NCBI RefSeq assembly: GCF_002097715.1
Contig: NZ_CP020738.1
Coordinates: 62,001-126,000 of the forward strand
Origin: Burkholderia ubonensis subsp. mesacidophila
GTDB taxonomy: Bacteria; Pseudomonadota; Gammaproteobacteria; Burkholderiales; Burkholderiaceae
Direction: 5' to 3'
DNA: 64,000 bases
Part shown: one piece after another, positions 34,619 to 53,939 of the stretch
Layout of the letters: every line of letters starts with the position of its first letter
How positions within the stretch are numbered: position 1 is the first letter of the stretch
Notes under the pieces: generated by a model
Databases searched by the model: none
The model's input: only the letters and a program-made list of their open reading frames with translations
What the model was told of the DNA's origin: nothing
Made by a program: the position numbers and the translations under genes

Positions 34619-34782
34619 GCGAAGCCGGCCAGGCGATCGGCACTGTGTCGGAAGTCTGGAAAGACGCGTGTTATCAGCGCATGAACGACCAGATCCGGCA
34701 TGGCCTGTGCATGCCTCGATGCGCGTCGCCCCTTGCCTCAACAGCCCGGGCGCGCATTGTACAGTGCACCATCGTCACAGGC

Positions 34783-37318: not shown

Positions 37319-37362
37319 AAAGGTGAGATTTTCCGGGAAGCTTGAGGTGAGGTTTTTCGGGA
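37319..37362 (-). repeat. Rep iterons in inverted orientation, downstream of the KfrA-like gene
   Basis: AAAGGTGAGATTTTCCGGGA (37319-37338) and AGGTGAGGTTTTTCGGGA (37345-37362) are reverse complements of the origin iteron with at most one change outside the NN positions. A third, partial, copy begins near 37369 (AAAGGGTGAG). Confidence 0.85.
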
Positions 37363-37432
37363 TCATTGAAAGGGTGAGGCCCTGCAGCGCAAGGCACTCA
37401 CACATCGCCGGCTGCATGCGGCAAGATCCGGA

Positions 37433-38473
37433 TCAGTGAGATTCGGGCTCGGATGGCACCTCACCTTCGATCACGCTGTCACGCCAGTTTTTCCACGCGC
37501 GGTGCAGACGATTCGACGAGATCGGCTGCATGAAGCCCAGCCACGTGCCAACCCGTTCGGGCGGGACGTCGTTCTCGAACAATTCCGCGGCATAGGTGTT
37601 GCGCAAGGTCTGCGGGCTTGCGCGCGCGGTGCGCGCCGTCGCGATGTCGGCTGCTTCGACGATCGCGTCGACCGCGCGCAACATCGTCGCCTTGTGCATT
37701 GGGCGACCCGCGTGCGATGCCGGAAAGACCAGATCGCCCGGAATATCCTGCCGCTTGCGTTCCGCGAGCCACGCATCGAACAGCGCGATCGCGAATGACG
37801 CCAGGTGCGTTTCCCGTGCGAAATCGGGATGCGTCGACGGAATCTGCAGCGATGTGCCGCCCGGATTGATGCAACTAATCGAAAGCACGCGGGCTTCGCC
37901 GGTCTTCACGCCGGCGCCGAGAAATGCGGCAACGAGCGCTCGGTCGCGACGCTCTTTCCAGTGCGCGGCGCCGGTTACGCCGATCGGCGAAAACAGATAG
38001 GCAAGCAGCTTTGCGCGCTCGGCCGGCGCAAGAAAACCGGTCGGCTCGTTGTCGCGCGCCTTGCGCCATGTCGCTTCGCCATCCTGAGCAATGAAGCGTG
38101 CCGGGTTGGTCGATCCGAATTCGCTGCGCCGGATATGATCGAGCACGCGCTCGATCAGCCGCAAATAGCGCATTCGTTGCGTTTTCTTGATCGGCAACTC
38201 GCCGACGAAGTGTGCGATCGAAGCCGTGTCGACTGTCGCGAGATTTTTCTGATGCGTGCGCAGCCAGGTCAGAAATGCCCCCCACTGCGCGCGATAGACG
38301 TCGGCGGACGACTGGCGGTAGTCCTGCATGGCAAGCCATGCGTCGAACGCGGCTTCGGGTGACGCGATCCAGTCCGATGCGCCGCGGTCGAACAAATCCT
38401 TCTCTTCCGTTGGCAATGGCGCGTGCGTGGGTGCAGGAAGGGACATGTCATTTGTTCCGTTAGTTGCGTACAT
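37433..38473 (-). CDS. degenerate tyrosine-recombinase-like protein beside the origin
   Basis: 346 residues from the ATG at 38473, with AAAAAGGGC upstream. The N-terminal SAM-like core-binding domain runs FDAWLAMQDYRQSSADVYRAQWGAFLTWLRTHQ; the C-terminal half has the integrase fold. Aligning the C-terminus without gaps to XerD (LRNTYAAELFEND with LRHAFATHLLNHG, RVGTWLGFMQ with VVQMLLGHSD) leaves only the second Arg intact. The first Arg is Lys (GVKTGEARV), the box II His is Gln (SPQTLRN), His/Trp is Phe (LGF), and the nucleophilic Tyr is Leu (SSNRLHRAW). It should bind but not recombine DNA. It shares a strand with the 126-residue gene upstream. Confidence 0.85.
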   Translation of the reverse strand: MYATNGTNDMSLPAPTHAPLPTEEKDLFDRGASDWIASPEAAFDAWLAMQDYRQSSADVYRAQWGAFLTWLRTHQKNLATVDTASIAHFVGELPIKKTQRMRYLRLIERVLDHIRRSEFGSTNPARFIAQDGEATWRKARDNEPTGFLAPAERAKLLAYLFSPIGVTGAAHWKERRDRALVAAFLGAGVKTGEARVLSISCINPGGTSLQIPSTHPDFARETHLASFAIALFDAWLAERKRQDIPGDLVFPASHAGRPMHKATMLRAVDAIVEAADIATARTARASPQTLRNTYAAELFENDVPPERVGTWLGFMQPISSNRLHRAWKNWRDSVIEGEVPSEPESH

Positions 38474-38599
38474 GGTAGCCCTTTTTGCAATACCCAGGGC
38501 GGGATGAACGGAAAGGCTTGATACGCGGGACGTGCATCCGTCCCCGCACTGCATGAATTGATTTTGGATCGGCCAAGGCAAGCCGCGCCTGACCCGCAA

Positions 38600-38980
38600 T
38601 CAGCCGCGCCAGCCCTTGGCTACACGCGCGGTTTTGACGGACGGTGGTTGCACGTCGCGCTTGCGTGCCGCGGCCTCGTACGCAATGACCGCGAACGAGA
38701 ATACCGCTGGCAGCGCGTTGGACTTGCCGAAGTCGGTGGGGTCGTCCGTTTCGGGAAACGTCATGTCCGACGGTCGTTCGAACAGTTGACGCATGCCGGC
38801 CTCGTGCCGGCTGGCAAACCCGAGATCCGCCAGCGCCTCGGCTTCGATCGCATGCAGCAGGCGCCAGGTCAGTGGCACCTGCTGGCGGATGTAGCGCTCG
38901 GCAATATGGCGAACGATCTGTTCGAGGTCATGCGCAGCAGCCTTGAAGCTGAGCGCGGCCAAATCTTGTTCTTCGGTCAT
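38600..38980 (-). CDS. hypothetical protein upstream of the recombinase-like gene
   Basis: 126 residues; the ATG at 38980 follows CAGGAGCCTGCG. Mostly helical (AAAHDLEQIVRHIAERYIRQQ, WRLLHAIEAEALADLGFASRHEAGMRQLF), with no recognised family, ending in a basic tail (KTARVAKGWRG). It is 126 bases upstream of the recombinase-like gene on the same strand, and a LexA-box-like sequence lies 140 bases upstream. It could be an origin-linked accessory protein (inference). Confidence 0.75.
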   Translation of the reverse strand: MTEEQDLAALSFKAAAHDLEQIVRHIAERYIRQQVPLTWRLLHAIEAEALADLGFASRHEAGMRQLFERPSDMTFPETDDPTDFGKSNALPAVFSFAVIAYEAAARKRDVQPPSVKTARVAKGWRG

Positions 38981-39120
38981 CGCAGGCTCCTGTCGGCCAA
39001 AGTTGGGGCTTTAGTGCCTTACTCTGGCCCCATGCTTTGCGGTCGGCCAGAGTTGGCGCCGAAGCGCGTGGGGCGCCCCCATGCTTCGCACTCAGGCCGA
39101 CGCATATCGGAATGTCCGTA

Positions 39121-39140
39121 TACTGTACAAACATACAGTG
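39121..39140. promoter_or_regulatory. LexA (SOS) box upstream of the recombinase-like operon
   Basis: TACTGTACAAACATACAGTG matches CTGT-N8-ACAG and the wider TACTGT...ACAGT context of the E. coli/betaproteobacterial SOS box. It lies 140 bases upstream of the 126-residue gene on the minus strand, amid AT-richer DNA that could hold its promoter. Confidence 0.65.
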
Positions 39141-39178
39141 TTTTCCGCAACTGGCCTTTTGGATGACTCGACGGCCCG

Positions 39179-39790
39179 TCAGCGATGAATCACGATCAGC
39201 AATGCTCTTGCTTCGGCCTTGCCGGGATTGCGGATCGCGTGCGGCGCGTCGGCCGGGTAGCGGGCGGTATCGCCGCTCTTCAGGCGGCGGACGGCCGCCG
39301 CGGCCTCGATTTCCATCGTGCCCTGCAGCACGGTCAGATGCTCGCGTGTGCCCGGCTCGTGCGCGTTCGAGACGAGCGCGCCCCCGCCCGGCAGCGTGAG
39401 TTCATACCACTCGAACCGGCCGGCGAGATCGATCGGGCCCCACACGCGCAGCTGGTACCGGCCGTCGTGGCCGGCGAGCGTCGGGATGTCGTGCGGGCCG
39501 TCGACGCGGATCGTCTCCTGCGACTTCGGTTGCGAGAACAGTTCGTCGAGCGTGATGCCGAGCGCGTTCGTCAGCCGCCACGCAACGGCGATAGTCGGGT
39601 TTGCCTTGTCGCGCTCGATCTCGGAGAGCATCGACTTCGACACGCCGGCCGCGCGCGACAGGTCGTCGAGCGTGAGCTTGCGTTCGTTGCGCAGGCGCTG
39701 GATCTGTTCGCCGACGCGCGGCGGCGTCGCGGCGGCCGGCGGCGGTGCGGCGTCGACGGGTGTGCGCCGCGAACCGGAGGAGCTTGCCAT
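39179..39790 (-). CDS. XRE-cupin transcriptional regulator
   Basis: 203 residues. The helix-turn-helix is at about 27-80 (GEQIQRLRNERKLTLDDLSRAAGVSKSMLSEIERDKANPT), then a cupin sensor domain (HEPGTREHLTVLQGTMEI, GDTARYPADAPHAIRNPG). Divergent from kbl-tdh, so the likely local regulator of threonine breakdown, responding to a small ligand. A 22-bp inverted repeat sits between the two start codons. Confidence 0.93.
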   Translation of the reverse strand: MASSSGSRRTPVDAAPPPAAATPPRVGEQIQRLRNERKLTLDDLSRAAGVSKSMLSEIERDKANPTIAVAWRLTNALGITLDELFSQPKSQETIRVDGPHDIPTLAGHDGRYQLRVWGPIDLAGRFEWYELTLPGGGALVSNAHEPGTREHLTVLQGTMEIEAAAAVRRLKSGDTARYPADAPHAIRNPGKAEARALLIVIHR

Positions 39791-39820
39791 TTGAATTCCG
39801 TTCGCTTAGAGTTGTTCGAT

Positions 39821-39842
39821 ATTCCGAATTTTAGTTCGGAAT
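39821..39842. promoter_or_regulatory. operator candidate between the XRE-cupin gene and kbl
   Basis: ATTCCGAA-TTTTAG-TTCGGAAT, a perfect 8-bp inverted repeat with six-base spacer, 31 bases from the regulator start and 110 from kbl. The position suits autoregulation and control of kbl-tdh. Confidence 0.75.
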
Positions 39843-39951
39843 AACGGAAAAGAGCGGTCAACCGAACGACCGACTATAACAGTAGCAGGCCGCCGGGCCG
39901 CCGCCACGAGCGGCGGCCCGGCGGGTTGCGATTCATGTCAGGAGCTTTGCG

Positions 39952-41151
39952 ATGCGTGATGCCTTTCTCGCCCAGGTGCGCGGGACGCTCGACCAGATTC
40001 GCGCGGACGGTTTCTACAAGACCGAGCGCGAGATCGCGAGCCCGCAGGCGGCGGCCGTGCGGCTCGCCGGTGGCGCCGGCGTGCTGAATTTCTGCGCGAA
40101 CAACTATCTCGGTCTGGCGAACGATCCGCGCCTGATCGCCGCGGCGAAGGCCGGTCTCGACCAGGACGGGTTCGGGATGGCGTCGGTGCGCTTCATCTGC
40201 GGCACGCAGACCGTGCACAAGCAGCTGGAAAGCGCGCTCGCCACATTCCTCGGCACCGACGACAGCATCCTCTATTCGAGCTGCTTCGACGCGAACGGCG
40301 GTCTGTTCGAAACGCTGCTCGACGAGAAAGATGCCGTGATCAGCGACGAACTGAATCACGCGAGCATCATCGACGGCATCCGCCTCTGCAAGGCGCAGCG
40401 GTATCGCTACAAGAACAACGACCTCGCGGATCTCGAAGCGAAGCTCAAGGAGGCCGACGCGGCGGGCGTGCGCCACAAGCTGATCGCGACCGACGGCGTG
40501 TTCTCGATGGACGGCATCATCGCCGACCTGAAAGGCATCTGCGATCTGGCTGACCGCTACGGCGCGCTCGTGATGGTCGACGATTCGCATGCGGTCGGCT
40601 TCATCGGCACGCACGGGCGCGGCACGCCCGAATACTGCGGCGTCGAGGGGCGCATCGACATCATCACCGGCACGCTCGGCAAGGCGCTGGGCGGCGCATC
40701 GGGCGGCTACGTCGCCGCGCGGCGGGAGATCGTCGAGCTGCTGCGCCAGCGCTCGCGCCCGTACCTGTTCTCGAATACGCTCACGCCGAGCATCGCCGCG
40801 GCGTCGCTCAAGGTGCTCGAACTGCTCGGCAGCGACGAGGGCGCGGCACTGCGCGAGCGCGTGCGCGAGAACGGCGCGCGCTTTCGCCAGCAGATGACCG
40901 AAGCCGGCTTCACGCTGGTGCCGGGTGCGCATCCGATCATCCCGGTGATGCTCGGTGATGCGCAGCTCGCGACGAACATGGCCGATGCGCTGCTCGCCGA
41001 AGGCGTCTACGTGATCGGCTTCTCGTTCCCGGTCGTGCCGCGCGGGCGTGCGCGCATCCGCACGCAGATGAGCGCCGCGCATACGCCCGAACAGATCGAC
41101 CAGACCGTCGCCGCGTTCGTGCGCGTCGGCAAGTCGCTCGGCATCGTCTGA
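39952..41151 (+). CDS. kbl: glycine C-acetyltransferase (2-amino-3-ketobutyrate CoA ligase)
   Basis: 399 residues, normal length; the ATG follows CAGGAGCTTTGCG. Fold-type I PLP enzyme: [16 protein letters not shown], substrate region [14 protein letters not shown] lysine in [15 protein letters not shown]. It cleaves 2-amino-3-ketobutyrate with CoA to glycine and acetyl-CoA. Twelve bases upstream of tdh, which makes its substrate. Confidence 0.97.
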
Positions 41152-41163
41152 CGGAGACCGCCC

Positions 41164-42192
41164 ATGAAAGCACTGGCAAAGCTCGAACGCGGTCCCGGCC
41201 TGTCGCTCACGCGCGTGAAGCGCCCTGAGGTCGGGCACAACGACGTGCTGATCAAGATCCACCGCACGGCGATTTGCGGCACCGACATCCACATCTGGAA
41301 GTGGGACGACTGGGCGCAGAAGACGATTCCCGTGCCGATGCACGTCGGTCACGAATACGTCGGCGAGATCGTCGAGATGGGGCAGGAAGTGCGCGGCTTC
41401 GCGATCGGCGATCGCGTGTCCGGCGAAGGCCACATCACGTGCGGCTTCTGCCGGAACTGCCGCGCGGGGCGCCGGCATTTGTGCCGCAACACGGTCGGCG
41501 TCGGCGTCAATCGCGAGGGCGCGTTCGCTGAATACCTGGCGATTCCCGCGTTCAACGCGTTCAAGATCCCGCCGGAGATTTCCGACGATCTCGCGTCGAT
41601 CTTCGACCCGTTCGGCAACGCGACGCACACGGCGCTGTCGTTCAACCTCGTCGGCGAGGACGTGCTGATCACCGGCGCCGGCCCGATCGGCATCATGGCC
41701 GTCGCGATCGCGAAGCACGTCGGCGCGCGCAACGTCGTGATCACCGATATCAACGACTATCGGCTCGAGCTTGCGCGCAAGATGGGCGCGACGCGCGCGG
41801 TCAACGTCGCACGGGAGTCGCTGCGCGACGTGATGACCGACCTGCACATGACCGAGGGGTTCGACGTCGGGCTCGAGATGTCCGGCGTCCCCAGCGCGTT
41901 CACGAGCATGCTCGAGGCGATGAACCACGGCGGCAAGGTCGCGTTGCTCGGCATTCCGCCCGCGCAGACGGCGATCGACTGGAACCAGGTGATCTTCAAG
42001 GGGCTGGAGATCAAGGGCATCTACGGCCGCGAAATGTTCGAGACCTGGTACAAGATGGTCGCGATGCTGCAAAGCGGTCTCGACCTGTCGCCGATCATCA
42101 CCCACCGCTTCGCCGTCGACGATTACGAGAAGGGCTTCGCGGCGATGCTGTCCGGCGAAAGCGGCAAGGTGATTCTCGACTGGACGGTCTGA
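41164..42192 (+). CDS. tdh: L-threonine 3-dehydrogenase
   Basis: 342 residues. Zinc medium-chain dehydrogenase: catalytic zinc site [20 protein letters not shown] with the His-Glu pair, structural zinc [15 protein letters not shown], and Rossmann motif [15 protein letters not shown]. It oxidises threonine to 2-amino-3-ketobutyrate. Operon kbl-tdh. Confidence 0.98.
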
Positions 42193-42250
42193 ACGCGTTC
42201 CTTGTGTTGCCGCGCCTCGCAGCGCGGCGTCGGCCGGGGGCACGGAAGTG

Positions 42251-44056
42251 TCAGCGGCCGACCGTCATCGCCAGATGCTCGGCGATCGGGCCGAGCGCGA
42301 GCGCCGGCAGGAACGTTACCAGCGTGACCAGCACCACGGTCGAAAGCAGCATGCAGAGGAACAGCGGTCCGTGCGTCGGCAGCGTGCCGGCGCCGGCCGC
42401 GCGTCGCTGCTTGGCCGCGAGGGAGCCCGCGATCGCCAGCACCGGCACGATGACCGTGAACCGGCCGAACCACATCGCGGCGGCCAGCGCCGTGTTGTAG
42501 AACGTCGTGTTTGCCGACAGGCCCGCGAACGCGCTGCCGTTGTTGTTCGCGGCCGACGAGAACGCGTAGAGCATTTCGCTGAAGCCATGCGCGCCCGGAT
42601 TGCCGAGCCCCGCGACGCCGGCCGGCGTCACGGCCGCGATCGCGGTGCCGACCAGCACGATCGCCGGCGTCGCGAGAATCGCGATCGACACCATCTTCAT
42701 TTCGTACGCGTCGATCTTCTTGCCGACGTATTCGGGCGCGCGCCCGATCATCAGTCCGGCGACGAACACCGCGAGCAGCACCACCATCAGCATGCTGTAC
42801 AGGCCTGAGCCGGGGCCGCCGAACACGACTTCGCCGGTCTGCATCAGCACCATCGGCACGAGGCCGCCGAGCGGCGTGAACGAATCGTGCATCGAATCGA
42901 CCGCGCCGTCGCCGCTGCTCGTCGACACCGTTGCGTACAGGGCCGACGACACGATGCCGAAGCGTGTTTCCTTCCCTTCCATGTTGCCGCCCGGCTGGCT
43001 CGCCGACGCGACCGCGTCGATGCCGGGCACATTCAGTGCCGGACCGACAGCCTGCTCCGCCCGGATCGCCATCGCGGCGGCCGCGACGAACAGCGTCAGC
43101 ATCGCGGCGTAGATCGTCCAGCCTTGCCGACGGTCCTGAATCATCGTGCCGAACGTGTAGCAAAGCGCGGCAGGAAGCACCAGCATTGCAAGCATCTGCA
43201 GGAAATTCGCGATCGGTGTCGGGTTCTCGTACGGATGCGCGGAATTCGCGTTGAAGAATCCGCCGCCGTCGCCGCTCATCAGCTTGATCGACTCCTGCGA
43301 TGCGACGGGCCCCATCGGCAGCGTTTGCACGGTCGTGGAAGAGGGCTGCGCCGACTGCGCGGACGCAGCCGGCATCGACGGGTGCGGCTGCACGATCGCG
43401 ATGTCGCGATTCGGCGCGAAATTCTGCAGCACACCTTGCCCGATGAACGCCGCCGCGAACAAGGCCGCCAGCGGAACCAGCACGTAGAGCGTCATGCGCG
43501 TCAGGTCGACCCAGACGTTGCCGATCGTTTGACTGCCCCGGCGCACGAGCCCGCGAATCAGCGCCAGCATGACGACCATCCCGCTCGCGGCCGACAGGAA
43601 CGCCTGCACGCCGATGCCGAGCATCTGCGTCAGGTGGCTGAGCGTCGTCTCGCCCGCATACGCCTGCCAGCTCGTATTCGTCGCGAAGCTGACGGCCGTG
43701 TTGAACGCGAGCCCCGGCTCGACGTTCGGCAAGTGCTGCGGATTGAGCGGCAGCCAGACCTGGATGCGCTGCAGCAGGTAGAGCGCAACCGCGCCGAGCG
43801 CATTGAACGCGACGAGCGCGACCGCATAGCGCTTCCAGTCCATTTCCGCGTCGGGGGCGACGCCGGCCAGCCGGTAAATCGCGTGTTCGACGCCGGCGAG
43901 GCGCCGCAGCGGCCCCGGCAGGTCGCCGAGCGCGATACGGGCGATGTATGTCCCGAGCGGCTTGACCAGAAAGGTGAGAACAAACAGGAACACGCCAACC
44001 TGTGTCCAGGCATTGCCGATCACGCTGCCTCCCAGGCCGGCGCCGCCGGCCTGCAT
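42251..44056 (-). CDS. kdpA: KdpA potassium-channel subunit, without kdpB/kdpC
   Basis: 601 residues from the ATG at 44056; a GTG at 44023 with GGAGG four bases upstream may be the true start. Ten or so membrane helices. The selectivity loops are present, for example SGDGGGFFNANSAHPYENPTP and AANNNGSAFAGLSANTTFYN. KdpA is the K+ channel part of the KdpFABC pump and needs KdpB. Downstream on this strand lies only tdh (opposite direction), and upstream no kdp gene is seen, so this is an isolated copy. The frame is intact, so either it is recently stranded or it works with subunits encoded elsewhere. Confidence 0.93.
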   Translation of the reverse strand: MQAGGAGLGGSVIGNAWTQVGVFLFVLTFLVKPLGTYIARIALGDLPGPLRRLAGVEHAIYRLAGVAPDAEMDWKRYAVALVAFNALGAVALYLLQRIQVWLPLNPQHLPNVEPGLAFNTAVSFATNTSWQAYAGETTLSHLTQMLGIGVQAFLSAASGMVVMLALIRGLVRRGSQTIGNVWVDLTRMTLYVLVPLAALFAAAFIGQGVLQNFAPNRDIAIVQPHPSMPAASAQSAQPSSTTVQTLPMGPVASQESIKLMSGDGGGFFNANSAHPYENPTPIANFLQMLAMLVLPAALCYTFGTMIQDRRQGWTIYAAMLTLFVAAAAMAIRAEQAVGPALNVPGIDAVASASQPGGNMEGKETRFGIVSSALYATVSTSSGDGAVDSMHDSFTPLGGLVPMVLMQTGEVVFGGPGSGLYSMLMVVLLAVFVAGLMIGRAPEYVGKKIDAYEMKMVSIAILATPAIVLVGTAIAAVTPAGVAGLGNPGAHGFSEMLYAFSSAANNNGSAFAGLSANTTFYNTALAAAMWFGRFTVIVPVLAIAGSLAAKQRRAAGAGTLPTHGPLFLCMLLSTVVLVTLVTFLPALALGPIAEHLAMTVGR

Positions 44057-44154
44057 CGAGTGGATAGTTTCAGTTCATCGCATGCCGGGTCAATTCGCCG
44101 GCAAGAAACGCGATGGCCGTGTAAACAATCTGTGAAATAACGCCGCGCGTGCTG

Positions 44155-44601
44155 CTATCGAAGCGGCTTGTTCTCGATCCACTTCGGATCGAGCTGCAGG
44201 TTGAGGAGCACGAGCCAGCGCCTCGGACAGCGCGGCGCGACGCGGACCGGCTCTTCGTCAGGCCCGCCGAACGCGATGAAGCCGAGTTCGAGCGCATCGC
44301 GGCACGCACGCAGCGCGTCGGCCTGCAGCCAGTAGCTGACGAGCGCGCACGATATGAAGCGGAACAGCAGCAGCGTCGCGGCTTCCGGCACGAACCCCGC
44401 CGAGACGAGCGCGAATTCGAACGCGAGCGTCAGCAGGTGCGCGACGGCGATCGTGACGAGCGCCAGCTTCGCGAGGCCGCGCAACCGGATCGCGGCGCGA
44501 AGGCGCGCGTTGCGCAGCGCGAGCCGCGAGGCTTCGTCCGGCGAGGCAGGTGGGTCGGGCGGGATGGACGAATCGCGGCCCGGAAGCGGGTCACGCTTCA
44601 T
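44155..44601 (-). CDS. hypothetical membrane protein
   Basis: 148 residues. It has a Pro-rich cytosolic start, a basic helix, then two hydrophobic stretches (LALVTIAVAHLLTLAFEFALVSAGF, LLLFRFISCALVSYWLQA) predicted as a hairpin. No family is recognised. It starts inside the stop of the acetyltransferase gene (ATGA overlap), so the two are co-translated. Confidence 0.75.
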   Translation of the reverse strand: MKRDPLPGRDSSIPPDPPASPDEASRLALRNARLRAAIRLRGLAKLALVTIAVAHLLTLAFEFALVSAGFVPEAATLLLFRFISCALVSYWLQADALRACRDALELGFIAFGGPDEEPVRVAPRCPRRWLVLLNLQLDPKWIENKPLR

Positions 44602-45236
44602 GACGAAGCCGCTTGCCGGCGAACGGGCCGGATCGCGACGGCGCCGTGCACCGCGGCATTGCGGTTCGTCGCACCGATCGGCTTGCAGAGAACGGCGCTG
44701 TCATAGCCGCGGCCCGCGAAGCGCATGACGTCGATCGGCTGGAAGCCTTCGCCGACGCAGAACGCGACGAGCCGACCGGCCTCCTGCGGCACATCGAGCG
44801 CGAGATGGCTGGCCCGGTGCGACGCGCTCCACTGCTCGGCGAACGCGAGCAGCGACCGGCCGATGCCGCGCGCCTGCCAGACCGGATCGACCGCAAGCTC
44901 GCGGATCGTCGCGACCCGGCGGCTGCGATACGGATCGCACGGCGAATCGGGATCGGACAGGCGCATCGTCAGCGTCGCGACCAGATGACCTTTGCTGAGC
45001 GCGACGAAGCACGCGCCGGCGAGCGTGCGCTCGCGCGTTCCGGCGGCGGAACGGTCGGCGGCCGGGTATGGAAAGCCCAGCGCGCCGAGGGGCGCGAACG
45101 CACGCTGCTGCAGCGCGGCCAGCGACTCGTACGAGTCGATGCGCGGATCGAAACGTCTCAACACGACGCGCTCGTCGAGCTGCTTCGCGTAAGCGGCGTA
45201 GGAACGAGCGCGACGTGCGGGTTCGGAATGCGGCAT
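44598..45236 (-). CDS. GNAT-family N-acetyltransferase
   Basis: 212 residues from MPHSEPARRARS behind GAGGATGTC. Acetyl-CoA-binding core: IRELAVDPVWQARGIGRSLLAFAEQWS (R-x2-G-I-G/A loop), preceded by the strand VATLTMRLSD. Substrate unknown. Pairs with the membrane protein gene downstream. Confidence 0.88.
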   Translation of the reverse strand: MPHSEPARRARSYAAYAKQLDERVVLRRFDPRIDSYESLAALQQRAFAPLGALGFPYPAADRSAAGTRERTLAGACFVALSKGHLVATLTMRLSDPDSPCDPYRSRRVATIRELAVDPVWQARGIGRSLLAFAEQWSASHRASHLALDVPQEAGRLVAFCVGEGFQPIDVMRFAGRGYDSAVLCKPIGATNRNAAVHGAVAIRPVRRQAASS

Positions 45237-45395
45237 GACATCCTCAGGCCCAACAAGGTGCACGCAGTGTAGTGAGTCGAGAATGCCGGCATCAAGAAAA
45301 AATGTCGTAAAGATTACGGACCGACATCGCCGCATTTCCGCTGGCGCACGCATACGCCCACGCATCCGGCGGCGATCGAAACATCCGTTGTGGTG

Positions 45396-45446
45396 GAACG
45401 ATCGTTCTGCATTTTTCTTGACACGAGAGAATGATCGTTCTACTGT
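45396..45446 (+). promoter_or_regulatory. promoter with two TetR operators
   Basis: GAACGATCGTTC (45396-45407) and GAATGATCGTTC (45429-45440) are dyads 33 bases apart, that is, three helical turns. A -35 TTGACA (45418-45423) and a 17-base spacer lead to TACTGT as -10. The second operator fills the spacer, so repressor binding would block RNA polymerase. The promoter serves the TetR gene 40 bases downstream. Confidence 0.85.
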
Positions 45447-45488
45447 AAACCCATCAACTCGAACCCTGTCAGTTCCGTTTGACCGACC

Positions 45489-46103: not shown

Positions 46104-46150
46104 CAAGCTGGCCGCGGCTTTGCGCGGCCGAACCCTGACTGGAGAAAACG

Positions 46151-46630
46151 ATGTCTGAATCAGCCGAAGTCCGCCCGCCCGTTCCGCCCTTTTCGCTCGA
46201 GACGGCGCGACAGAAAGTCCGCGCCGCCGAGGACGGATGGAACACGCGCGATCCGCAACGCGTGTCGCTCGCTTATACGCCGCAAAGCCGCTGGCGCAAC
46301 CGCGCGGAGTTCGTGACCGGTCGCGACGCAATCGTCGGACTGTTGCAGCGGAAATGGACGCGCGAGCTCGACTACCGGCTGATCAAGGAGTTGTGGGCGT
46401 TCGACGGGAACCGCATTGCGGTGCGGTTCGCGTATGAATGGCATGACGATGCCGGCAATTGGTTCCGCTCGTACGGCAACGAGAACTGGGAGTTCGACGA
46501 CAACGGCCTGATGGCGCATCGCCACGCGAGCATCAACGACATGCCGATCCGCGAAGCGGACCGACTCTTTCACTGGCCGCTCGGCCGCCGTCCGGACGAT
46601 CATCCGGGCCTGTCCGATCTCGGTCTGTAA
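46151..46630 (+). CDS. DUF1348/NTF2-like protein
   Basis: 159 residues. SNTF2-like alpha+beta fold with [43 protein letters not shown] and [23 protein letters not shown], the DUF1348 pattern. Function unknown; the family is often TetR-linked. Same strand as the repressor, 47 bases downstream, with GGAG upstream. Confidence 0.92.
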
Positions 46631-46691
46631 GCGCGTCGAGAATAACGCCGTATCGATGGAATGGTGAGGGAATGCGGGAGTCGGTGCGTTC

Positions 46692-46710
46692 AAGGTGAGC
46701 GTTTTCGGGA
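46692..46710 (-). repeat. distal Rep iteron
   Basis: AAGGTGAGCGTTTTCGGGA, an exact match to the reverse complement of the origin consensus, 11 kb from the array. It lies in the 393-base gap 46631-47023, which shows no gene. Confidence 0.8.
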
Positions 46711-47023
46711 ACAGGTGAAAACGCCATCGCGTCAGTCTCTTCGGTGACGCAGTGACACGATGTGCTGCTCACCGGTCGCAACCAGAACGAACAAACGCGC
46801 GATTCGACGCGGCTGAAGCGCATGGTGGTGCGTATCGGCATGTCGTGTGTCTCAACGCAGCCCGAATTCCGACCGCGCCGAAGCTTGCATCGGTGCGCGT
46901 CGATACGCCGTGCATCTCACCTATGTGCGAGATGGGCACGTCGCTGCGCCAAGCCTGCGACGCGACGTGCCGATCACCTCACCTCACATGCATACGGCGC
47001 AGCATCGCCCAGCCCGTCACCCG

Positions 47024-48109
47024 TCATCCCGCAATCCGCGCCGCGATTGCTTCCCCGACTGCCTGCGTGCCGGCGCTGCCCGCGAGATCGCGCGTATGCG
47101 GCCCCGTGCGCAGCACGTCCTCGATCGCTGCGACGATCGCGTCGTGCGCGTCGCGCTCGCGGCCGGCGCCGTTGCCGAGGAAGTCGAGCATCATTGCCGC
47201 CGACCAGATCATCGCGATCGGGTTCGCGATGTATTGCCCCGCGATGTCGGGCGCCGAACCGTGCACGGGCTCGAACAGCGACGGAAACGTGCGCTCGGGG
47301 TTGAGGTTCGCGGACGGCGCGATGCCGATCGTGCCGGTGCACGCGGGGCCGAGATCCGACAGGATGTCGCCGAACAGGTTCGATGCGACGACGACGTCGA
47401 AGCGGTCCGGCTGCAGCACGAAGCGGGCGCACAGGATGTCGATGTGCTGCTTGTCCCACACGATGTCCGGATAGCGCTCGGCCATCTCGGCCGCGCGCGC
47501 GTCCCACCACGGCATGCTGATCGCAATGCCGTTGCTCTTCGTCGCAACCGTCAGGCGTTTCGCGCGCCGCTGCGCGAGCTCGAACGCGAACTTCAGCACG
47601 CGCTCGGTGCCGTGCCGCGTGAAGATCGATTGCTGCACGACCACCTCGCGGTCGGTGCCTTCGAACATCGTGCCGCCGACCGACGAGTATTCGCCTTCGG
47701 TGTTCTCGCGCACGATCATGAAGTCGATGTCGCCGGCGCGGCGGCCGGCGAGCGGCGACGGCACGCCGTCGAACAGGCGTGCGGGACGCAGGTTGATGTA
47801 CTGGTCGAACTCGCGGCGGAACTTCAGCAGCGAACCCCACAGCGAGATGTGGTCCGGCACCGTCGCGGGCCAGCCGACCGCGCCGAACAGGATCGCGTCC
47901 ATGCCGGACAGCTGCGCTTTCCAGTCCTCCGGCATCATCCGGCCATGCTGCGCGTAGTAGTCGCAGCTCGCCCATTCGATGTGCGTGAAGTCGAAGCGGA
48001 TGCCGAAGCGGGCCGTCACCGCGTCGAGCGCGCGCAAGCCTTCGGGCATCACTTCACGGCCGATGCCGTCGCCGGGGATGACGGCGATTTGGTAAATCCT
48101 GTCGCTCAT
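47024..48109 (-). CDS. ttuC: tartrate dehydrogenase/D-malate dehydrogenase-type decarboxylating enzyme
   Basis: 361 residues of the isocitrate/isopropylmalate dehydrogenase family: IAVIPGDGIGREVMPEGL, substrate Arg block FRREFDQYINLRPARL, VRENTEGEYSSVGG, the Mg/NAD site NLFGDILSDLGP and EPVHGSAPDIAG. The combination, with EGEYSSVGG, marks tartrate dehydrogenase (also acting on D-malate). Divergent from a LysR regulator. Confidence 0.92.
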   Translation of the reverse strand: MSDRIYQIAVIPGDGIGREVMPEGLRALDAVTARFGIRFDFTHIEWASCDYYAQHGRMMPEDWKAQLSGMDAILFGAVGWPATVPDHISLWGSLLKFRREFDQYINLRPARLFDGVPSPLAGRRAGDIDFMIVRENTEGEYSSVGGTMFEGTDREVVVQQSIFTRHGTERVLKFAFELAQRRAKRLTVATKSNGIAISMPWWDARAAEMAERYPDIVWDKQHIDILCARFVLQPDRFDVVVASNLFGDILSDLGPACTGTIGIAPSANLNPERTFPSLFEPVHGSAPDIAGQYIANPIAMIWSAAMMLDFLGNGAGRERDAHDAIVAAIEDVLRTGPHTRDLAGSAGTQAVGEAIAARIAG

Positions 48110-48233
48110 GCGAATGCTCCTCCAGATCGATTCGGGCCGCCGCGGGTAACGCGCGCAGCGGCGGACGACCTCATTCTATTTATTTCCATCCGGATTAAAA
48201 TCGCCGAAAGGGTTAATCGACTTTCCACGAATC

Positions 48234-49157
48234 GTGAACAAATCGCCGAACCTCGACGACCTGCGCGTGTTCAGCGTCGTCGTCCGCCTGACGAGCTTCA
48301 GTGCGGCGGCCGAGCAGCTCGGCGTGTCGCCCGCGTATGTCAGCAAGCGCATTGCGCAACTGGAAGCGCAGCTCGGCACGCGGCTGCTGCACCGCTCGAC
48401 GCGCCGCGTCGCGGTGACGGAAGCCGGCGAACGCGTGCTCGCGCGCGCCGAGAAGATTCTCGACGACGTCGATCACCTCGTCGAGGACGTGTCGACCACG
48501 CGCACGGTGCCGCGCGGCACGCTGCGCATCTCGAGCAGTTTCGGCTTCGGCCGGCACGTCGTCGCGCCGGCGCTGCTCGCGTTCACCGAGCGTTTTCCGC
48601 AGCTGAACGTGCGGCTCGATCTGTTCGACCGGCTCGTCGACGTCGCGGGCGAAGGGTTCGACCTCGACATCCGGATCGGCGACGAGATCGCCGAGCACCT
48701 GATCGCGCGCCGGCTCGCGTCGAATTACCGCGTGCTGTGCGCGTCGCCCGCCTATCTCGCGCGGCGCGGCACGCCGCGCACGCTCGCGGAGCTTTCGTCG
48801 CATGAATGCCTCGCGATCAAGGAGCGCGATCATCCGCTTGGCGTGTGGCGCATGAATGTGCGCGGCGAGACGCAGACCGTGAAGGTCGGCGGCGCGCTGT
48901 CGACGAATCATGGCGAAGTCGCCGTGCAATGGGCGCTCGCGGGGCGCGGGATCGTGCTGCGGTCGATCTGGGAGGCCGGGCCGCTGATCGCGCGCGGCGC
49001 GCTATGCCGCGTGTTGCCGGACGCGACCCAGCCCGCGAACGTCTGGGCCGTCTATCCGGAACGGGTCGCGACGTCCGCGAAGGTGCGCGTGTGCGTCGAC
49101 TTTCTCACGGATGAGTTCGCGCATCTGAACGACACGGCGAGCGATGACGTCGCGTGA
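48234..49157 (+). CDS. LysR-family regulator of the tartrate/malate dehydrogenase (DmlR-like)
   Basis: 307 residues from a GTG at 48234. LysR helix-turn-helix: LDDLRVFSVVVRLTSFSAAAEQLGVSPAYVSKRIAQLEAQLG in pieces, residues 5-48. The effector domain has LRISSSFGFGRHVVAPALLAF. It resembles DmlR, which activates the neighbouring dehydrogenase gene. Divergent promoter, 124 bases. Confidence 0.93.
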   Translation: MNKSPNLDDLRVFSVVVRLTSFSAAAEQLGVSPAYVSKRIAQLEAQLGTRLLHRSTRRVAVTEAGERVLARAEKILDDVDHLVEDVSTTRTVPRGTLRISSSFGFGRHVVAPALLAFTERFPQLNVRLDLFDRLVDVAGEGFDLDIRIGDEIAEHLIARRLASNYRVLCASPAYLARRGTPRTLAELSSHECLAIKERDHPLGVWRMNVRGETQTVKVGGALSTNHGEVAVQWALAGRGIVLRSIWEAGPLIARGALCRVLPDATQPANVWAVYPERVATSAKVRVCVDFLTDEFAHLNDTASDDVA

Positions 49158-49165
49158 TGCGCGCC

Positions 49166-49185
49166 AAAGGTGAGCTTTTACGGGG
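49166..49185 (-). repeat. distal Rep iteron
   Basis: AAAGGTGAGCTTTTACGGGG, two changes from the iteron consensus, nine bases after the LysR stop. Confidence 0.65.
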
Positions 49186-49213
49186 ACGTGATTCAGTGCC
49201 GGCCCGCGTTACT

Positions 49214-49678
49214 TCACAGCCGGTTGTCCTTCGCCAGCGTGAGCACGCGCGCCCAGCGTTGCGCGTCGCGCTTGTCCGTCATCGGCAGCTTCCATTCGCT
49301 GCGCGCGGCATCGCGGACCTGCACGACGAGATGCCAGCGCCCCCCGATCGGTGCGGCCAGGCAGCCGTCGAGCTGCGACAGCGTATAGCGGCCGTCCGCG
49401 CCATCGTGCGACAGCCATAGCAGCCCCTGCGTCGCGGACACGCGCAACTCGCCCCACGCGCGATGCACGATGTGGGTCCAGCCTTCTTCCCTCGTGTTCG
49501 GCGCGATGTCGCGGCGGCGCTTGATCCACCACGCGACCAGCGCAATCAGCAGCGCGGCGGCAAGCACCGCGGCGGTCACCGCGACCGGCTCGCCGAACTG
49601 CGCGGCGATCACGTGAAAAGTATGAACCGCGCCCCACGCGAGCGCGATGAGCGCGAACAGCGCAATGAAAATCGGCAT
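49214..49678 (-). CDS. small membrane-anchored hypothetical protein
   Basis: 154 residues from MPIFIALFALIALAWG. Two N-terminal hydrophobic segments (about 1-17 and 30-50, ending in KRRRDIAPN) are followed by a soluble beta-rich part (GELRVSATQGLLWLSHDG, GRWHLVVQVRDAARSEWKLPM). Family not recognised. It follows the patatin gene on the same strand and may be its operon partner. Confidence 0.75.
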   Translation of the reverse strand: MPIFIALFALIALAWGAVHTFHVIAAQFGEPVAVTAAVLAAALLIALVAWWIKRRRDIAPNTREEGWTHIVHRAWGELRVSATQGLLWLSHDGADGRYTLSQLDGCLAAPIGGRWHLVVQVRDAARSEWKLPMTDKRDAQRWARVLTLAKDNRL

Positions 49679-49739
49679 GTCGGATTCGGAAAGAGGAACG
49701 GACCGGCGCAGGCAGCGCGCCGGTCCATCGTGCACGACG

Positions 49740-50957
49740 TCACCGCTTGCGGTGAATGTCGTGCGTCACGAAGCCCGCGTCGTTGACGGGCAACGCGAGG
49801 CCGTCCTTGACGGCGAGCGTCTTGCGGATGTCGTCGAGACCCGCGGCCCAGTGGTCGCGCATCGTCGACAGACCGAACTGATAGTCCTTGTAGTGATGCT
49901 CGTACGCCTTCTGCTGGTAGATCAGGTGCTGGATGTTGTATTTCTTCCCGCACGACATCGCTTCCGCCTCGATGCACCACGGATCGGTCTTGCGCTGCTC
50001 CTCCGGCACCCTGTCGAGCACCTGGCGCAGCACGTTGCGATAGCGCTGTTCGCGCTGCAGCGTATCGGTGACGAAACGCGTGCGGCTCGAGTACTGGACG
50101 TCCTTCGTGCGCTCGGCGACGTCGGCCAGCGAACGCGGCAGCGGCCCGCGCGCGCTCCACAGGTCGACCTGGAACGCGAGCGTGTCGCGGCGCGGCCGCG
50201 CGCGCAGCACTTCCATCAGCGGCGTGTTCGACACGACGCCGCCGTCCCAGTAGTACTCGCCTTCGATCTCGACCGGCGGGAACGCGGGCGGCAGCGCGCC
50301 GGACGCCATGAAGTGCTCCGGCTCGAGGCGGATGCGCGCGTTGTCGAAGTAGACGAAGTTGCCGGTGCCGACGTTGACCGCGCCGACCGACACGCGGGTC
50401 TCGCCCGAGTTGATGCGGTCGAAATCGCACAGCTTGAGCAGCGTCGAGCGCAACGCCGACGTGTCGTACCAGCTGACCTTGTCCGGATGATCGGACACGC
50501 CCGGCAGCGGCGGCGGGACGCGCGGCGCGAAGAAGCCCCGTTGGCCCTGCATCATCGCGCTCGCGGCCTGCGATGCGGTGAAGAACGTGCGGACCTGATC
50601 GATGCTGTTGAACAGCGCGAACTCGAAAGCCGCCGGAACCGCCGGAAAGAACGCCGGCTGGCAGATCGTTTCCCAGAACTGACGCAGCCGCTCGACGCGA
50701 TGCTCGGGCGCGTTGCCCGCGATCAGCGCGGTGTTGAGCGCGCCGATCGAGATGCCCGCGATCCAGTCGAGCGGAATGCCCGCTTCGTGCAAGCCTTCGA
50801 ACACGCCTGCCTGATAGGCGCCGAGCGCGCCGCCGCCCTGCAGCACGAGTGCGATCGTCTCGTAGGGAAGCGTGCGGGCGGCGGCCGGCGCGCCGGCCTC
50901 ATGATGCAGGTCCGCCGCATCGACGGCCTGCTTTTCTGTACGGGCGTGCGGTTTCAT
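49740..50957 (-). CDS. patatin-like phospholipase
   Basis: 405 residues from MKPHARTEK; the ATG at 50957 has CGGAGC upstream. Oxyanion loop LQGGGALGAYQAGV, nucleophile IAGISIGALNTALI (Ser in GISIG), and catalytic Asp in DGGVVSNTPL. A C-terminal DUF3734 region follows (IQHLIYQQKAYEHHYKDYQF). Such proteins are linked to PHB/ketone-body genes in Burkholderia. The TnpB element inserted directly upstream of its ribosome binding site, splitting it from hbdH. Confidence 0.94.
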   Translation of the reverse strand: MKPHARTEKQAVDAADLHHEAGAPAAARTLPYETIALVLQGGGALGAYQAGVFEGLHEAGIPLDWIAGISIGALNTALIAGNAPEHRVERLRQFWETICQPAFFPAVPAAFEFALFNSIDQVRTFFTASQAASAMMQGQRGFFAPRVPPPLPGVSDHPDKVSWYDTSALRSTLLKLCDFDRINSGETRVSVGAVNVGTGNFVYFDNARIRLEPEHFMASGALPPAFPPVEIEGEYYWDGGVVSNTPLMEVLRARPRRDTLAFQVDLWSARGPLPRSLADVAERTKDVQYSSRTRFVTDTLQREQRYRNVLRQVLDRVPEEQRKTDPWCIEAEAMSCGKKYNIQHLIYQQKAYEHHYKDYQFGLSTMRDHWAAGLDDIRKTLAVKDGLALPVNDAGFVTHDIHRKR

Positions 50958-50974
50958 CAATTGCTCCGAGAAAT

Positions 50975-52114
50975 CCCGCCATTGATGGCGGGGAGGAAAG
51001 GAGTGCGCTTGACAGGCAGCTTCTCCCACGGGTTAGGATGGCCGGCATGATTCTTGTCTACCGCTACCGGGTGAAGTCGCTCAACGGACTCCTTAACAAA
51101 CAGAGCCGAGCGGTGACCTAAGTCTGGAACTTCTGCAATGACACGCAGAAGCACGCGCTCAAGTGGCGCAAGAAGTGGCCGACGGGGTTCGACCTGAACG
51201 TGCTGACGACCGGCAGCAGCAAGGCACTCGGCATCCACTCCGGCACGGTCAACGCGACGTGCGAGCAATACGCGAAATCGCGCAGCCAGCGCCGTCGCCC
51301 TTATCTGCGCTATCGCGGCAGAAAGTCGCTTGGCTGGGTGCCGCTGAAGGGCCGCGACCTGAAGCGCGAGGGCGACGCGTTTCGCTTTGCCGGCAACACC
51401 TTCCGCGTATTCAATAGCCGCCTGCTTCCCGAAGGCAAGATCAAGGACGGCACCAACTTCGCGCAGGATGCGCGCGGCAACTGGTTTCTCAACATCGTGA
51501 TCGAGATGCCCGATGTTCCGGCCCGTCCGATCCGTTCCGGTGTCGGCATCGATCTGGGCCTGAAAGACTTCGCCACACTTTCGACCGGCGAAAAACTGCC
51601 GAATGACCGGTTCGGCCGGCGCGCGGCCGACAAGCTGGCGAAGGCGCAGCGGGCGCGAAAGCACAAACGGCATATCGCGAAGCTGCATGCCAAGGTGGCG
51701 AATGTCCGTGCCGATTTCCAGCACAAGCTCGCGCTCGATCTGGTGCGACGCTTCGATTACATCGCGGTCGGCAACGTGTCGGCCGCCAGTCTCGCCAGAA
51801 CCAGGATGGCGAAGAGCGTCTACGACGCATCCTGGTCGTCCTTCCGGAACAAGCTCCGTTACAAGGCGATCGCGCACGGAGCCACGTTCGAGGAAGTGGA
51901 CGAAAGCGGTTCTACCCAGTCCTGTTCGGCGTGCGGGTCGAGAGACAGCACGACGCGGCCGAAAGGTATCGCGGGACTGCGAATAAGAGAGTGGACCTGC
52001 AGTGACTGCGGTGTCGTGCATGATCGCGATATCAACGCTGCGTTGAACATTCTCCGATGCGGACGTGCATCGCCAGGTGTGGGAATCGCCTCCCTTTAGG
52101 GAGGCGAGGACGTT
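50975..52114 (+). mobile_element. orphan TnpB element (IS605/IS607-type accessory, no transposase)
   Basis: Left boundary near the hairpin CCCGCCAT-TG-ATGGCGGG (50975-50992). Right boundary near CGCCTCCC-TTTA-GGGAGGCG (52087-52106), followed by AGGACGTT. The right hairpin contains the tnpB stop in its loop, the region from which a guide (omega) RNA is normally made. The element lies exactly between the hbdH stop codon and the patatin ribosome binding site. No tnpA is present. Ends are inferred. Confidence 0.75.
51047..52099 (+). pseudogene. tnpB: TnpB RNA-guided nuclease homologue with an in-frame stop
   Basis: Reading from MILVYRYRVKSL, the frame meets TAA at 51119-51121, exactly where TnpB proteins have a residue before VWNFCND. 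From there it is open to 52099; an internal GTG at 51200 could restart 299 residues. RuvC-I Asp is in GVGIDLGLKDF. The usual Glu position is Gly (YIAVGNVSAASLA), but a Glu appears in EVDESGSTQSC, the alternative site of Fanzor-like enzymes. The zinc finger is CSACG...CSDCG, and RuvC-III Asp is in HDRDINAALNIL. Confidence 0.82.
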
Positions 52115-52898
52115 ACTGCATGAACCAGCCGTGGCTGACGATGAACGACTGGCCGGTCAGCGCGGCGCTCGGGAACGCCGACAGGAACAGCACCGTCTGC
52201 GCGACGTCCTGCACCGTCGTGAACACGCCGTCGACCGTGTTGCCGAGCATCACCTTCTTCACCACTTCGTCTTCGCTGATCCCGAGCTCCTTGGCCTGCT
52301 CCGGAATCTGCTTGTCGACGAGCGGCGTGCGCACGAAGCCCGGGCACACGACGTGCGAGCGCACGTTGTGCTTCGCGCCTTCCTTCGCCAGCACGCGCGC
52401 GAGACCCAGCAGCCCGTGCTTCGCGGTCACGTACGCCGACTTCAGCGGCGACGCCTCGTGCGAGTGCACCGAGCCCATGTAGATCACGACGCCGCCGCGG
52501 TCGTCCTTGTACATGTGCTTGAGCGCCGCCTTGGTGGTCAGGAACGCGCCGTCGACGTGGATCGCCTGCATCTTCTTCCAGTCGGCGAACGCGTAGTTCT
52601 CGATCGGGTTGACGATCTGGATGCCCGCGTTCGACACGAGGATGTCGATCGAGCCGAACGTTTCGGCCACCTTGTCGATGCCGCTGTTGACGGCGTCCTC
52701 GTTCGTCACGTCCATCGCGACGCCGATCGCCTTGCCGCCCGCCTGCTTGATTTCCTCGGCGACGGCGTTCGCGCCGTCCTGGTTCAGGTCGGCGATCGCC
52801 ACCGCCGAGCCCGCCTTTGCCAGTTCCAGCGCGATTTCCTTGCCGATGCCGCTCGCGGCGCCGGTGACGACTGCGGTCTTGCCATTCAGATTGCTCAT
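52113..52898 (-). CDS. hbdH: 3-hydroxybutyrate dehydrogenase
   Basis: 261 residues, short-chain dehydrogenase: [20 protein letters not shown] in LVSNAGIQI, catalytic Ser-Tyr-Lys in [21 protein letters not shown], and the family motif [22 protein letters not shown]. It interconverts 3-hydroxybutyrate and acetoacetate. Downstream of acetoacetate decarboxylase (51-base gap). Its stop codon adjoins the TnpB element. Confidence 0.96.
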
Positions 52899-52949
52899 GT
52901 TCGAGTTTCCGTAATCAAGGGTGGAAAAAGGGGAAAAGGACGGCGGGCG

Positions 52950-53690
52950 TTACTGCGCCAGGTAATCGTAGACGACTTCGCCGAGCCCGAGCGTCAAATC
53001 CGCGACGATATGCCGGGCCTCGACGATCTCGAGCACCGGCAGGTCGGCGACCGGCGCGAGCGCATGCGGCGACAGCTCGAGCGAGGCCGGGCCGGTCCAT
53101 GCGCCTTTCATCTGGATATCCTCCATGTAGTAGCGCACCAGCTCGCAGACGCGCGCCGAGCCATCGACATGAGGAATGATCTTCAGCAGGAAATTGGGGC
53201 TGGCGAGGCGCTTGGCCTGCTCGGCGATGTCCAGCTCGCGGTGCTTGTAGCCCATCGTGCCGGTCGCGACGCGCACCTTGCCGTAGTCGAGCGTGCCGAG
53301 GAGGTGATCGGTGTTCACGTGCAGCGTGGGCGACGCGAGCTTCTTCGGGAATCCCCACAGCTCGCGGCCGCCGGCGATCGGCGGATGGTCGTCGAGGTAC
53401 ATCGCGAGCGTGTAGCTGCCCGGCTGGCCGTTGTATTCGACGGGGATCACCTGGCCGCTTTCGGTGTAGTCGCCGAAGCCGGTGGAGTCGGCCATGCGAA
53501 TGAATTCGTAATGCACGAGCGGCTCGGTGACCTGCAGGGGTTCAGGCACGATTTCGCGCAGACGATCCGGATCGGTGCGATACGTGATGATCAGGAACTC
53601 ACGATCGACGAAACGGTAAGGGCCCATCGGGAAGGCAGGGCTGGTCAACGGCATCGCAAAGGCTTTCGATCGGACATCGCTGGGTTTCAT
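52950..53690 (-). CDS. adc: acetoacetate decarboxylase
   Basis: 246 residues. The catalytic block [12 protein letters not shown] carries the Schiff-base Lys, and the N-terminal [18 protein letters not shown] and [19 protein letters not shown] are typical. It converts acetoacetate to acetone and CO2. First gene of the adc-hbdH-(patatin) operon. Confidence 0.95.
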
Positions 53691-53898
53691 GCGGACTCCT
53701 TGTTGTTGATCGGCTTCGTTGATGAGTGCTCGTAATCCTATGCCTGCGCGCCGTCGTTGTGCGATGCCACAACTGGAATAAATTGTTGCAGAATCCGATG
53801 AATTGACAACGCAAATGTTGATTCGAACGGCGTCAATGGCCCGATGGACGCTCAGCGCACCGATCGTCGCAGGTGTCGATGACGTCGCGATGTGGTCG

Positions 53899-53939
53899 AG
53901 GGTGAGCTTTTTCGGGATTCATGGTGAGGTTTTACGGGA
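53899..53939 (-). repeat. pair of distal Rep iterons
   Basis: AGGGTGAGCTTTTTCGGGA (53899-53917) and TGGTGAGGTTTTACGGGA (53922-53939), each one or two changes from the consensus and in tandem, about 18 kb from the array. They sit in the 438-base gap 53691-54128 upstream of adc, where no gene is seen. Confidence 0.8.

Follow-up and report, generated by a model that had tools for sequence, protein, structure and literature searches.

What does an initiator site do when it lies outside the origin? The question is raised by the chromosome 2 origin of Burkholderia ubonensis subsp. mesacidophila, where a gene for a Rep3-family initiator, rep, adjoins an array of 20-bp iterons, and further copies of the iteron are scattered along the chromosome. 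The window analysed here is a 64-kb stretch that includes this origin (C2:62001-126000), and coordinates are those of the window unless a replicon is named. The genome comprises four contigs, C1 to C4, amounting to 7.84 Mb, with C1 at 3.7 Mb, C2 (chromosome 2) at 3,308,659 bp and C4 at 153 kb. Outside the origin, the iteron copies form a conserved series on the right arm and a remote locus on the left. Judged from sequence, they are probably extra-origin sites of the chromosome 2 initiator, predicted to exert negative control over initiation by titration or handcuffing.

Iteron copies outside the origin

The 20-mer, searched at up to three mismatches, matched the window 19 times, where shuffled sequences predict 0.03 matches. 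Of these 19, thirteen are origin-array copies on the forward strand, and six are inverted copies to the right of the array. In the whole genome 37 matches were obtained: 31 on C2 (the 13 array copies, the six right inverted copies, seven in the left locus and five scattered), four on C3, two on C4 and none on C1. The backward motif, used as control, gave none. A chance origin of the sites was rejected on the basis of the window shuffles and this control. The first-pass annotation of this DNA had named an equal density on the other replicons as grounds for abandoning its reading; the scan instead found an unequal one.

Two weight matrices were used. Matrix 1, built from the 13 array copies of the window, expects 0.2 sites of at least 16 bits per 400 kb and gave one match in 2 Mb of simulated sequence; the six right inverted copies score 23.7-29.8 bits under it. 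Matrix 2 was built from 197 distinct array iterons of the genus and applied with a cut-off of 15 bits. Overall, the distal sites of the window's genome outnumber those of the origin array by 23 to 16; the 23 comprise six in the window, one weak site and the 16 of the left locus.

At up to two mismatches, the 20-mer has 19-26 matches in each of 13 Burkholderia genomes and reaches such numbers in none of eight genomes of other families, the control in this comparison being zero except for one match in G019. Within the family, 78 of 150 genomes carry it at the same threshold, with controls of 0 or 1 per strand. Counts of at least ten are seen in the genus of the window and, in part, in five further genera; many others have none or one.

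A conserved series on the right arm

The right-arm survey covered 18-32 kb per genome in 14 Burkholderia genomes. G003 was excluded as the same genome as G022, and G021 and G060, which have identical coordinates, were never both placed in one set. A further set of 49 loci, from Burkholderia, Paraburkholderia, Caballeronia and Trinickia, overlaps with the surveyed genomes, and the two sets are therefore not independent.

In the window, the inverted copies start at 37319, 37343, 46691, 49166, 53898 and 53920. The first-pass annotation had listed all six within two bases of these positions and had placed them between genes, which is borne out by the gene calls; the copy at 46691, which it took to be exact (at 46692), has one mismatch. 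Across the 14 genomes, right-arm sites form about five conserved groups, A to E. Group A is a pair 24 bp apart at +1.6 kb, with one site above threshold in G006 and G012, and at least one inverted site occupies its position in 49 of 49 loci. Group B is a single site at +6.5 kb, present in 10 of 14 genomes. Group C pairs a weak with a strong site 29-33 bp away and lies between +8 and +11 kb (+16 kb in G005); its strong member is present in 13 genomes, and in G010 its weak member falls below threshold. Group D, a single site at +11 to +13.5 kb, was found in 11 genomes within the surveyed stretch, and a match at about +18.5 kb in G005 is among the matches listed. Group E comprises two sites with a spacing of 22 bp, located between +15.5 and +18 kb in 11 genomes; a similar pair occurs at +30 kb in G006.

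Conservation was measured as the mean pairwise identity of a site compared with that of its left and right 80-bp flanks. The values are 0.89 against 0.63 and 0.73 for site A (13 genomes), 0.87 against 0.46 and 0.45 for site B (10 genomes), 0.82 against 0.53 and 0.42 for site C (13 genomes), 0.96 against 0.76 (left, coding) and 0.27 (right) for site D (11 genomes), and 0.86 against 0.59 and 0.79 for site E (11 genomes). At A and C, the partner site falls within one of the two flanks. At E it falls within the right flank, together with what may be a promoter, and this flank is an exception in degree to the rule that sites exceed their flanks. A scan of relatives, as the first-pass annotation had suggested, thus finds the sites conserved in place above most flanks.

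As for placement, 92 of the 99 right-arm sites of at least 15 bits lie outside called genes, compared with an intergenic fraction of 0.174 (crude gene calls). Sites A, C and often D stand 9-118 bp past a stop codon, a position at gene ends that argues against promoter control. This bears on the possibility that the outside sites are operators, through which Rep would act as a transcription regulator of neighbouring genes. Promoter repression is a property of Rep3 proteins such as RepE, the fold matches of Rep include a RepE-operator structure, and site E lies 208 bp from the start of the acetoacetate decarboxylase gene in a divergent gap. However, A, C, D and the 23-bp array of the left locus sit between convergent gene ends, and the neighbours scanned (DUF1348, isocitrate/isopropylmalate dehydrogenase family, LysR type, patatin, PAP2) have no evident common theme. 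We therefore consider operators an unlikely explanation of the set.

The initiator and the partition locus

Both Rep3 winged-helix domains are found in Rep above cutoff (Pfam; Rep3_N, PF01051, 1.3e-11; Rep3_C, PF21205, 7.3e-10). These tandem winged helices, in the product of a gene that adjoins an array of about 20-bp iterons, place Rep among the Rep3 initiators of the RepE/pi type. The first array site, at 34379, lies 121 bp upstream of the rep start. All 49 loci encode rep, at 89-99% identity, and all have an origin array, with 10-17 sites each. The GC skew of the window flips sign near 35 kb, at the array. In a Foldseek search, the best match of the Rep structure model is RepE of mini-F (E 3e-5, with a template modelling score of only 0.2-0.4), and domains 2-3 of RctB are a weak match (E 0.0097). 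The model has a mean predicted local distance difference test score of 66, too low for judging the C-terminal part against RctB domain IV.

A long frame antisense to rep (32741-34207) is conserved enough for retrieving orthologous loci, and an annotation by open reading frame length alone would put rep on the wrong strand.

The gene order is parA, parB, rep (reverse strand), iteron array and KfrA-like gene. Directly past site A, a tyrosine recombinase gene (37433-38599) is convergent with the KfrA-like gene. Elsewhere in the window, GC content drops to 0.50 at 8001-10000, in a region otherwise mostly at 0.6-0.7; this may be acquired DNA.

The surroundings of rep lend themselves to a different explanation, in which the Rep-bound sites organise or segregate chromosome 2, either by tagging the replicon or by serving with ParABS as anchors for folding of the origin domain, and have little effect on initiation. 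The replicon bias is in keeping with this, as is the placement of the sites around the parAB-rep locus, with the KfrA-like gene between array and site A, and the inverted geometry could favour one looping arrangement. Against it, the sites match the origin iterons and should hence compete for the initiator, and the studied parallel for extra-origin initiator sites, as described in passages of PMC3937223, is one of replication control. A role in segregation in place of replication control is accordingly improbable.

The left side of the origin

The first-pass annotation had found no copy to the left of the origin, which proved wrong on two counts. The first is a copy at 20923, inside a squalene/phytoene synthase gene, which scores 18.5 or 21.2 bits depending on the matrix and is matched by a counterpart in every one of the 14 genomes, roughly 13-15 kb left of the origin. 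Its conservation is partly due to coding constraint; the variable codon phase is better conserved inside the site (0.94) than in its flanks (0.80).

The second is a remote locus, C2:3192991-3196318, about 212 kb anticlockwise of the origin. In the ten genomes in which the distance was measured, with origin and locus on one contig, it is 127-212 kb, and in the nine relatives among them 127-163 kb. The locus begins with an array of regularly spaced units, found in 13 of 14 genomes with 11-21 units each. Its end units, taken as the outermost units of at least 8 bits, score 24.5-36.7 bits in 13 of 13 arrays, compared with interior medians of 13.2-19.5. The interior units retain TCCCG (96%) and TCAC (94% of 138 distinct units) and have largely lost the A-tract, with a mean A of 0.60 against 0.98 in 25 distinct end units. 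In several genomes a single interior unit, often the third, scores 24-31 bits.

Around 2.7 kb past the array, next to an H-NS-like gene, lies an opposed trio: two inverted copies spaced by 22 bp, followed 301 bp later by a third, single one. Across genomes, the 22-bp spacing is followed by one of 299-313 bp, which is 301 in 10 of 13 genomes. A pattern for the trio's pair was found in 57 of 65 Burkholderia genomes (54 at up to one mismatch and three only at two), with a control of zero.

The left locus was also compared with the origin. No DnaA box within one mismatch was found in 4.2 kb of the left locus, which thus does not resemble datA in this respect, and the origin itself has one; the most AT-rich 100 bp reaches 0.57 at the left locus and 0.58 at the origin. 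With box counts and AT maxima similar at both, neither measure separates the two. Three genes of the left locus were scanned and none is rep. A second origin at this place is unlikely, as far as sequence can tell. In Trinickia and Paraburkholderia, further iteron clusters lie on other contigs (L100, L104, L125-L127), with no obvious 23-bp pitch; they are possibly counterparts of the left locus.

These data also bear on a reading without present function, in which the left array would be a relic or a second origin, and the scattered copies debris left by old rearrangements. The pitch of 22-23 bp resembles that of plasmid iteron arrays, and most interior units are degenerate, both of which would suit a relic. 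Nevertheless, the sites are conserved above most of their flanks, site A persists in all 49 loci, every one of the 13 arrays keeps end units of at least 24.5 bits, and the three genes scanned at the left locus include no rep, which makes this explanation very unlikely.

Orientation of the sites

All copies had initially been described as having one orientation. This holds for the right flank in Burkholderia, where 99 of 99 sites in 14 genomes are inverted, and fails for the replicon as a whole and for Caballeronia arvi and Paraburkholderia sp. CNPSo 3272. In Trinickia fusca, five of five right-side sites in the surveyed stretch are inverted. The left array and the copy at -13.4 kb have the mirrored orientation relative to the right arm, and the left trio deviates from the rule together with the scattered copies at C2:3248363 (-), 325457 (+) and 1559598 (+).

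A polarity rule like that of FtsK-orienting polar sequences (KOPS) was rejected on account of the trio, the scattered copies and the exceptions in Caballeronia and Paraburkholderia. It is very unlikely that the sites are polar features of a KOPS-like or fork-pausing kind, whose orientation would be what counts for a fork moving through them, because the agreement of the 99 right-arm sites and the mirrored left copies is offset by those same exceptions, and the sites are too few for a KOPS-like signal.

Probable titration or handcuffing

Titration or handcuffing by the chromosome 2 initiator is the best-supported mechanism, since most of the sites lie on chromosome 2, are better conserved in place than most of their flanks, and lie near the origin, where they would be duplicated early. 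The idea of a set comparable with that of RctB had been put forward in the first-pass annotation; it stands in this respect, and its premise of sites on the right only does not, the largest set being the remote left locus. As expected of a titration locus, near-consensus motifs exceed the chance number outside the origin and are found mostly on the cognate replicon. They also occupy positions that should replicate early, the right arm within about 18 kb of the origin and the left locus at the distances given above for ten genomes.

The process may be pictured as follows. Rep, made from the gene adjoining the origin, would fill the origin array, and a round would start. The fork would duplicate the right-arm sites almost at once and the left locus minutes later, and the new sites would soak up free Rep, so that a second start in the same cycle would be blocked. 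Contacts between Rep molecules could in addition pair, or handcuff, distal sites with origin iterons. The left array would represent a high-capacity cooperative sink, akin to a plasmid inc locus moved away from the origin; its strong ends and regular phasing are in keeping with cooperative Rep loading. By our estimate, the right-arm sites would be duplicated in the first minute after initiation and the left locus at 4-7 min, a delay that suits a sink closing the re-initiation window. This assumes that chromosome 2 forks cover about 1.6 Mb in 54 min, as suggested for Burkholderia cenocepacia J2315.

Several observations weigh against this mechanism. Site B is absent in the window's own genome (G000) and in G006, G007 and G010. 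The division of the left array into strong ends and weak interior is not strict, as some interior units are strong, reaching 31 bits. In G006 the trio is inverted and lies on the other (right) arm at about 247 kb, and the array is replaced by a pair with a spacing of 34 bp; the trio pair pattern is absent in eight of the 65 Burkholderia genomes. Site E, in its divergent gap, could be regulatory. The Caballeronia and Paraburkholderia genomes named above carry some right-side sites in array orientation. Finally, uniform orientation taken alone has a chance of about 0.06 by our own arithmetic and is weak evidence, because the 99 sites amount to about five jointly inherited loci.

Chromosome 2 iterons on other replicons

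The chromosome 3 origin, too, has a pair of chromosome 2-type iterons, which precedes the rep start of C3 by 1.57-1.60 kb and lies near the distinct iterons of that chromosome. The pair was present in all six genomes first examined, as an island within otherwise poorly aligning DNA; these six are not a random draw, some having been picked for having a match. Scored with the chromosome 2 model, the sites of the pair reach 17-32 bits, and the chromosome 3 model gives them no more than 8.1. Conversely, none of the 73 chromosome 3 iterons from these six genomes exceeds 5.8 bits with the chromosome 2 model; one in G044 and G049 scores 10.3.

In the wider sample of 65 Burkholderia genomes, 54 have a chromosome 3-type Rep (at least 67% identity). 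The pair pattern was found at 47 places in 43 of the 65, with a control of zero; 36 places are upstream of the chromosome 3 rep and 11 elsewhere. A matrix scan was added for 18 pattern misses. Taken together, 42 of the 54 genomes have the pair 1.5-1.7 kb upstream in the same orientation, 35 by pattern and seven by matrix (spacing of 32-35 bp). In the rest, the pair is 3.0 kb upstream in one, a single site remains in two, and nine have none within 3 kb.

A search of four genomes with the chromosome 3 iteron pattern, at up to three mismatches, yielded 44 matches, every one of them on the contig that carries the chromosome 3 rep (6 for the backward control). No chromosome 3-type site of 15 bits is present in the window. 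Given this confinement to the chromosome 3 rep contig and absence from the window, the sharing of iterons looks one-way, from chromosome 2 to chromosome 3. The sequence favours a chromosome 2 Rep that would act at the pair, rather than a chromosome 3 Rep with a second site type. It is a tentative suggestion, and one we would not bet on, that the chromosome 2 initiator may also govern chromosome 3, whose firing would then track the status of chromosome 2 in a one-way replication cascade. In such a cascade, the left array and the right-arm series would set the level of free chromosome 2 Rep. According to Du et al. 2016 (PMC4948915), the origins of chromosome 3 are seen to separate at a greater cell length than the chromosome 1 and 2 origins.

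A coupling to chromosome 1 had been suggested for the window's sites. It finds no support in the window's genome, and a link via iteron sites was rejected there, with none of the 37 matches on C1. The exact 17-mer core on C1 has no occurrence in G000 or G001, three in G008 and one in G021, and one 20-mer match on C1 of G031 is among the matches listed. As crtS is unlike iterons, an iteron search on C1 cannot exclude a site of the crtS type. If there is any cross-replicon coupling, the sequence would point to chromosome 3.

On C4, a pair of chromosome 2-like iterons 31 bp apart (C4:67745-67795; L020:9745-9795) lies between a small open reading frame, which adjoins a gene with a primase-type zinc domain match, and the gene of a single-stranded DNA-binding protein. 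The coordinates of the main features are presented in Table 1.

Table 1. Features of the chromosome 2 origin region and related iteron loci (window coordinates unless a replicon is named).
Feature	Coordinates	Strand	Description
Left near copy	20923-20942	+	Mirrored orientation; inside squalene/phytoene synthase gene; 4 mismatches; -13.4 kb
parA-like ATPase gene	31091-31753	+	AAA_31/CbiA
parB	31777-32838	+	ParB_N, HTH_ParB, TIGR00180
rep	32894-34258	-	Chromosome 2 initiator, 454 aa, Rep3 family (winged helices WH1 and WH2, helical C-terminal part)
Origin iteron array	34379-35720	+	16 sites of at least 15 bits, irregular spacing
KfrA-like gene	36082-37293	+	KfrA_N 1.1e-19; separates origin array from site A
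Site A	37319-37362	-	Two inverted iterons 24 bp apart; convergent intergenic gap
Site C	46660-46710	-	Weak (46660) and strong (46691) inverted iterons 31 bp apart; convergent gap
Site D	49166-49185	-	Single inverted iteron, 9 bp past LysR-type gene; convergent gap
Site E	53898-53939	-	Two inverted iterons 22 bp apart; divergent gap between acetoacetate decarboxylase gene and PAP2 gene
Left array	C2:3192991-3193287		13 units, 23-bp pitch (one 24-bp step); convergent gap between 183-aa gene and acyl-CoA ligase/GNAT gene
Chromosome 3 origin pair	C3:118482-118534 (L017:13482-13534)		Chromosome 2-type iterons, 33 bp apart

Comparison with known systems

In P1 and F, extra iteron arrays outside the origin, incA and incC respectively, limit copy number by titration and handcuffing, with an initiator of the RepE kind. 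Those arrays stand beside the rep gene, whereas the array described here is 127-212 kb away, has near-consensus ends and a mostly weakened interior, and is joined by more sites along one arm. The datA locus is a remote cluster of initiator sites that is duplicated soon after initiation, and works on DnaA. The left locus is likewise a remote cluster of initiator sites, but differs in having no DnaA box within one mismatch; datA of Escherichia coli is discussed in passages of PMC3937223.

The extra RctB sites of Vibrio are the closest studied parallel (PMC3937223, PMC11711613, PMC6090056). On chromosome II of Vibrio cholerae, as here, copies of the origin iteron occur outside, yet near, the origin of a plasmid-derived secondary chromosome, and the role proposed for the extra-origin sites is inhibitory titration (Baek and Chattoraj 2014, PMC3937223). 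The present system differs in its Rep3-family initiator, its 20-bp iteron, the conserved right-arm series and the array of 23-bp pitch 127-212 kb off, all with binding as a prediction. RctB has in addition a 39-mer type of site, and our comparison concerns the 20-bp iteron alone. In 2025, chromatin immunoprecipitation sequencing located RctB also at eight regions of Chr1 and six of Chr2 (PMC11711613), and the Vibrio site set is therefore not confined to one chromosome.

Distal iterons as such are already published: a second iteron cluster on chromosome 2 of B. cenocepacia J2315 is mentioned in one sentence, in a table legend (Du et al. 2016, PMC4948915). In the portion of that article available, supplementary files aside, no structure, conservation or mechanism for the second cluster was found. 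Likewise, no description of the right-arm series, the 23-bp array or the chromosome 3 pair was found there or in the literature searched.

Most of what is understood about once-per-cycle control of plasmid-derived secondary chromosomes comes from Vibrio, where the initiator is a different one. A second lineage now shows a conserved layout of extra-origin sites, which can be removed one by one. If it is true that the chromosome 2 initiator binds the pair at the chromosome 3 origin, this would provide a sequence-level handle on the ordering of replicons in multipartite genomes.

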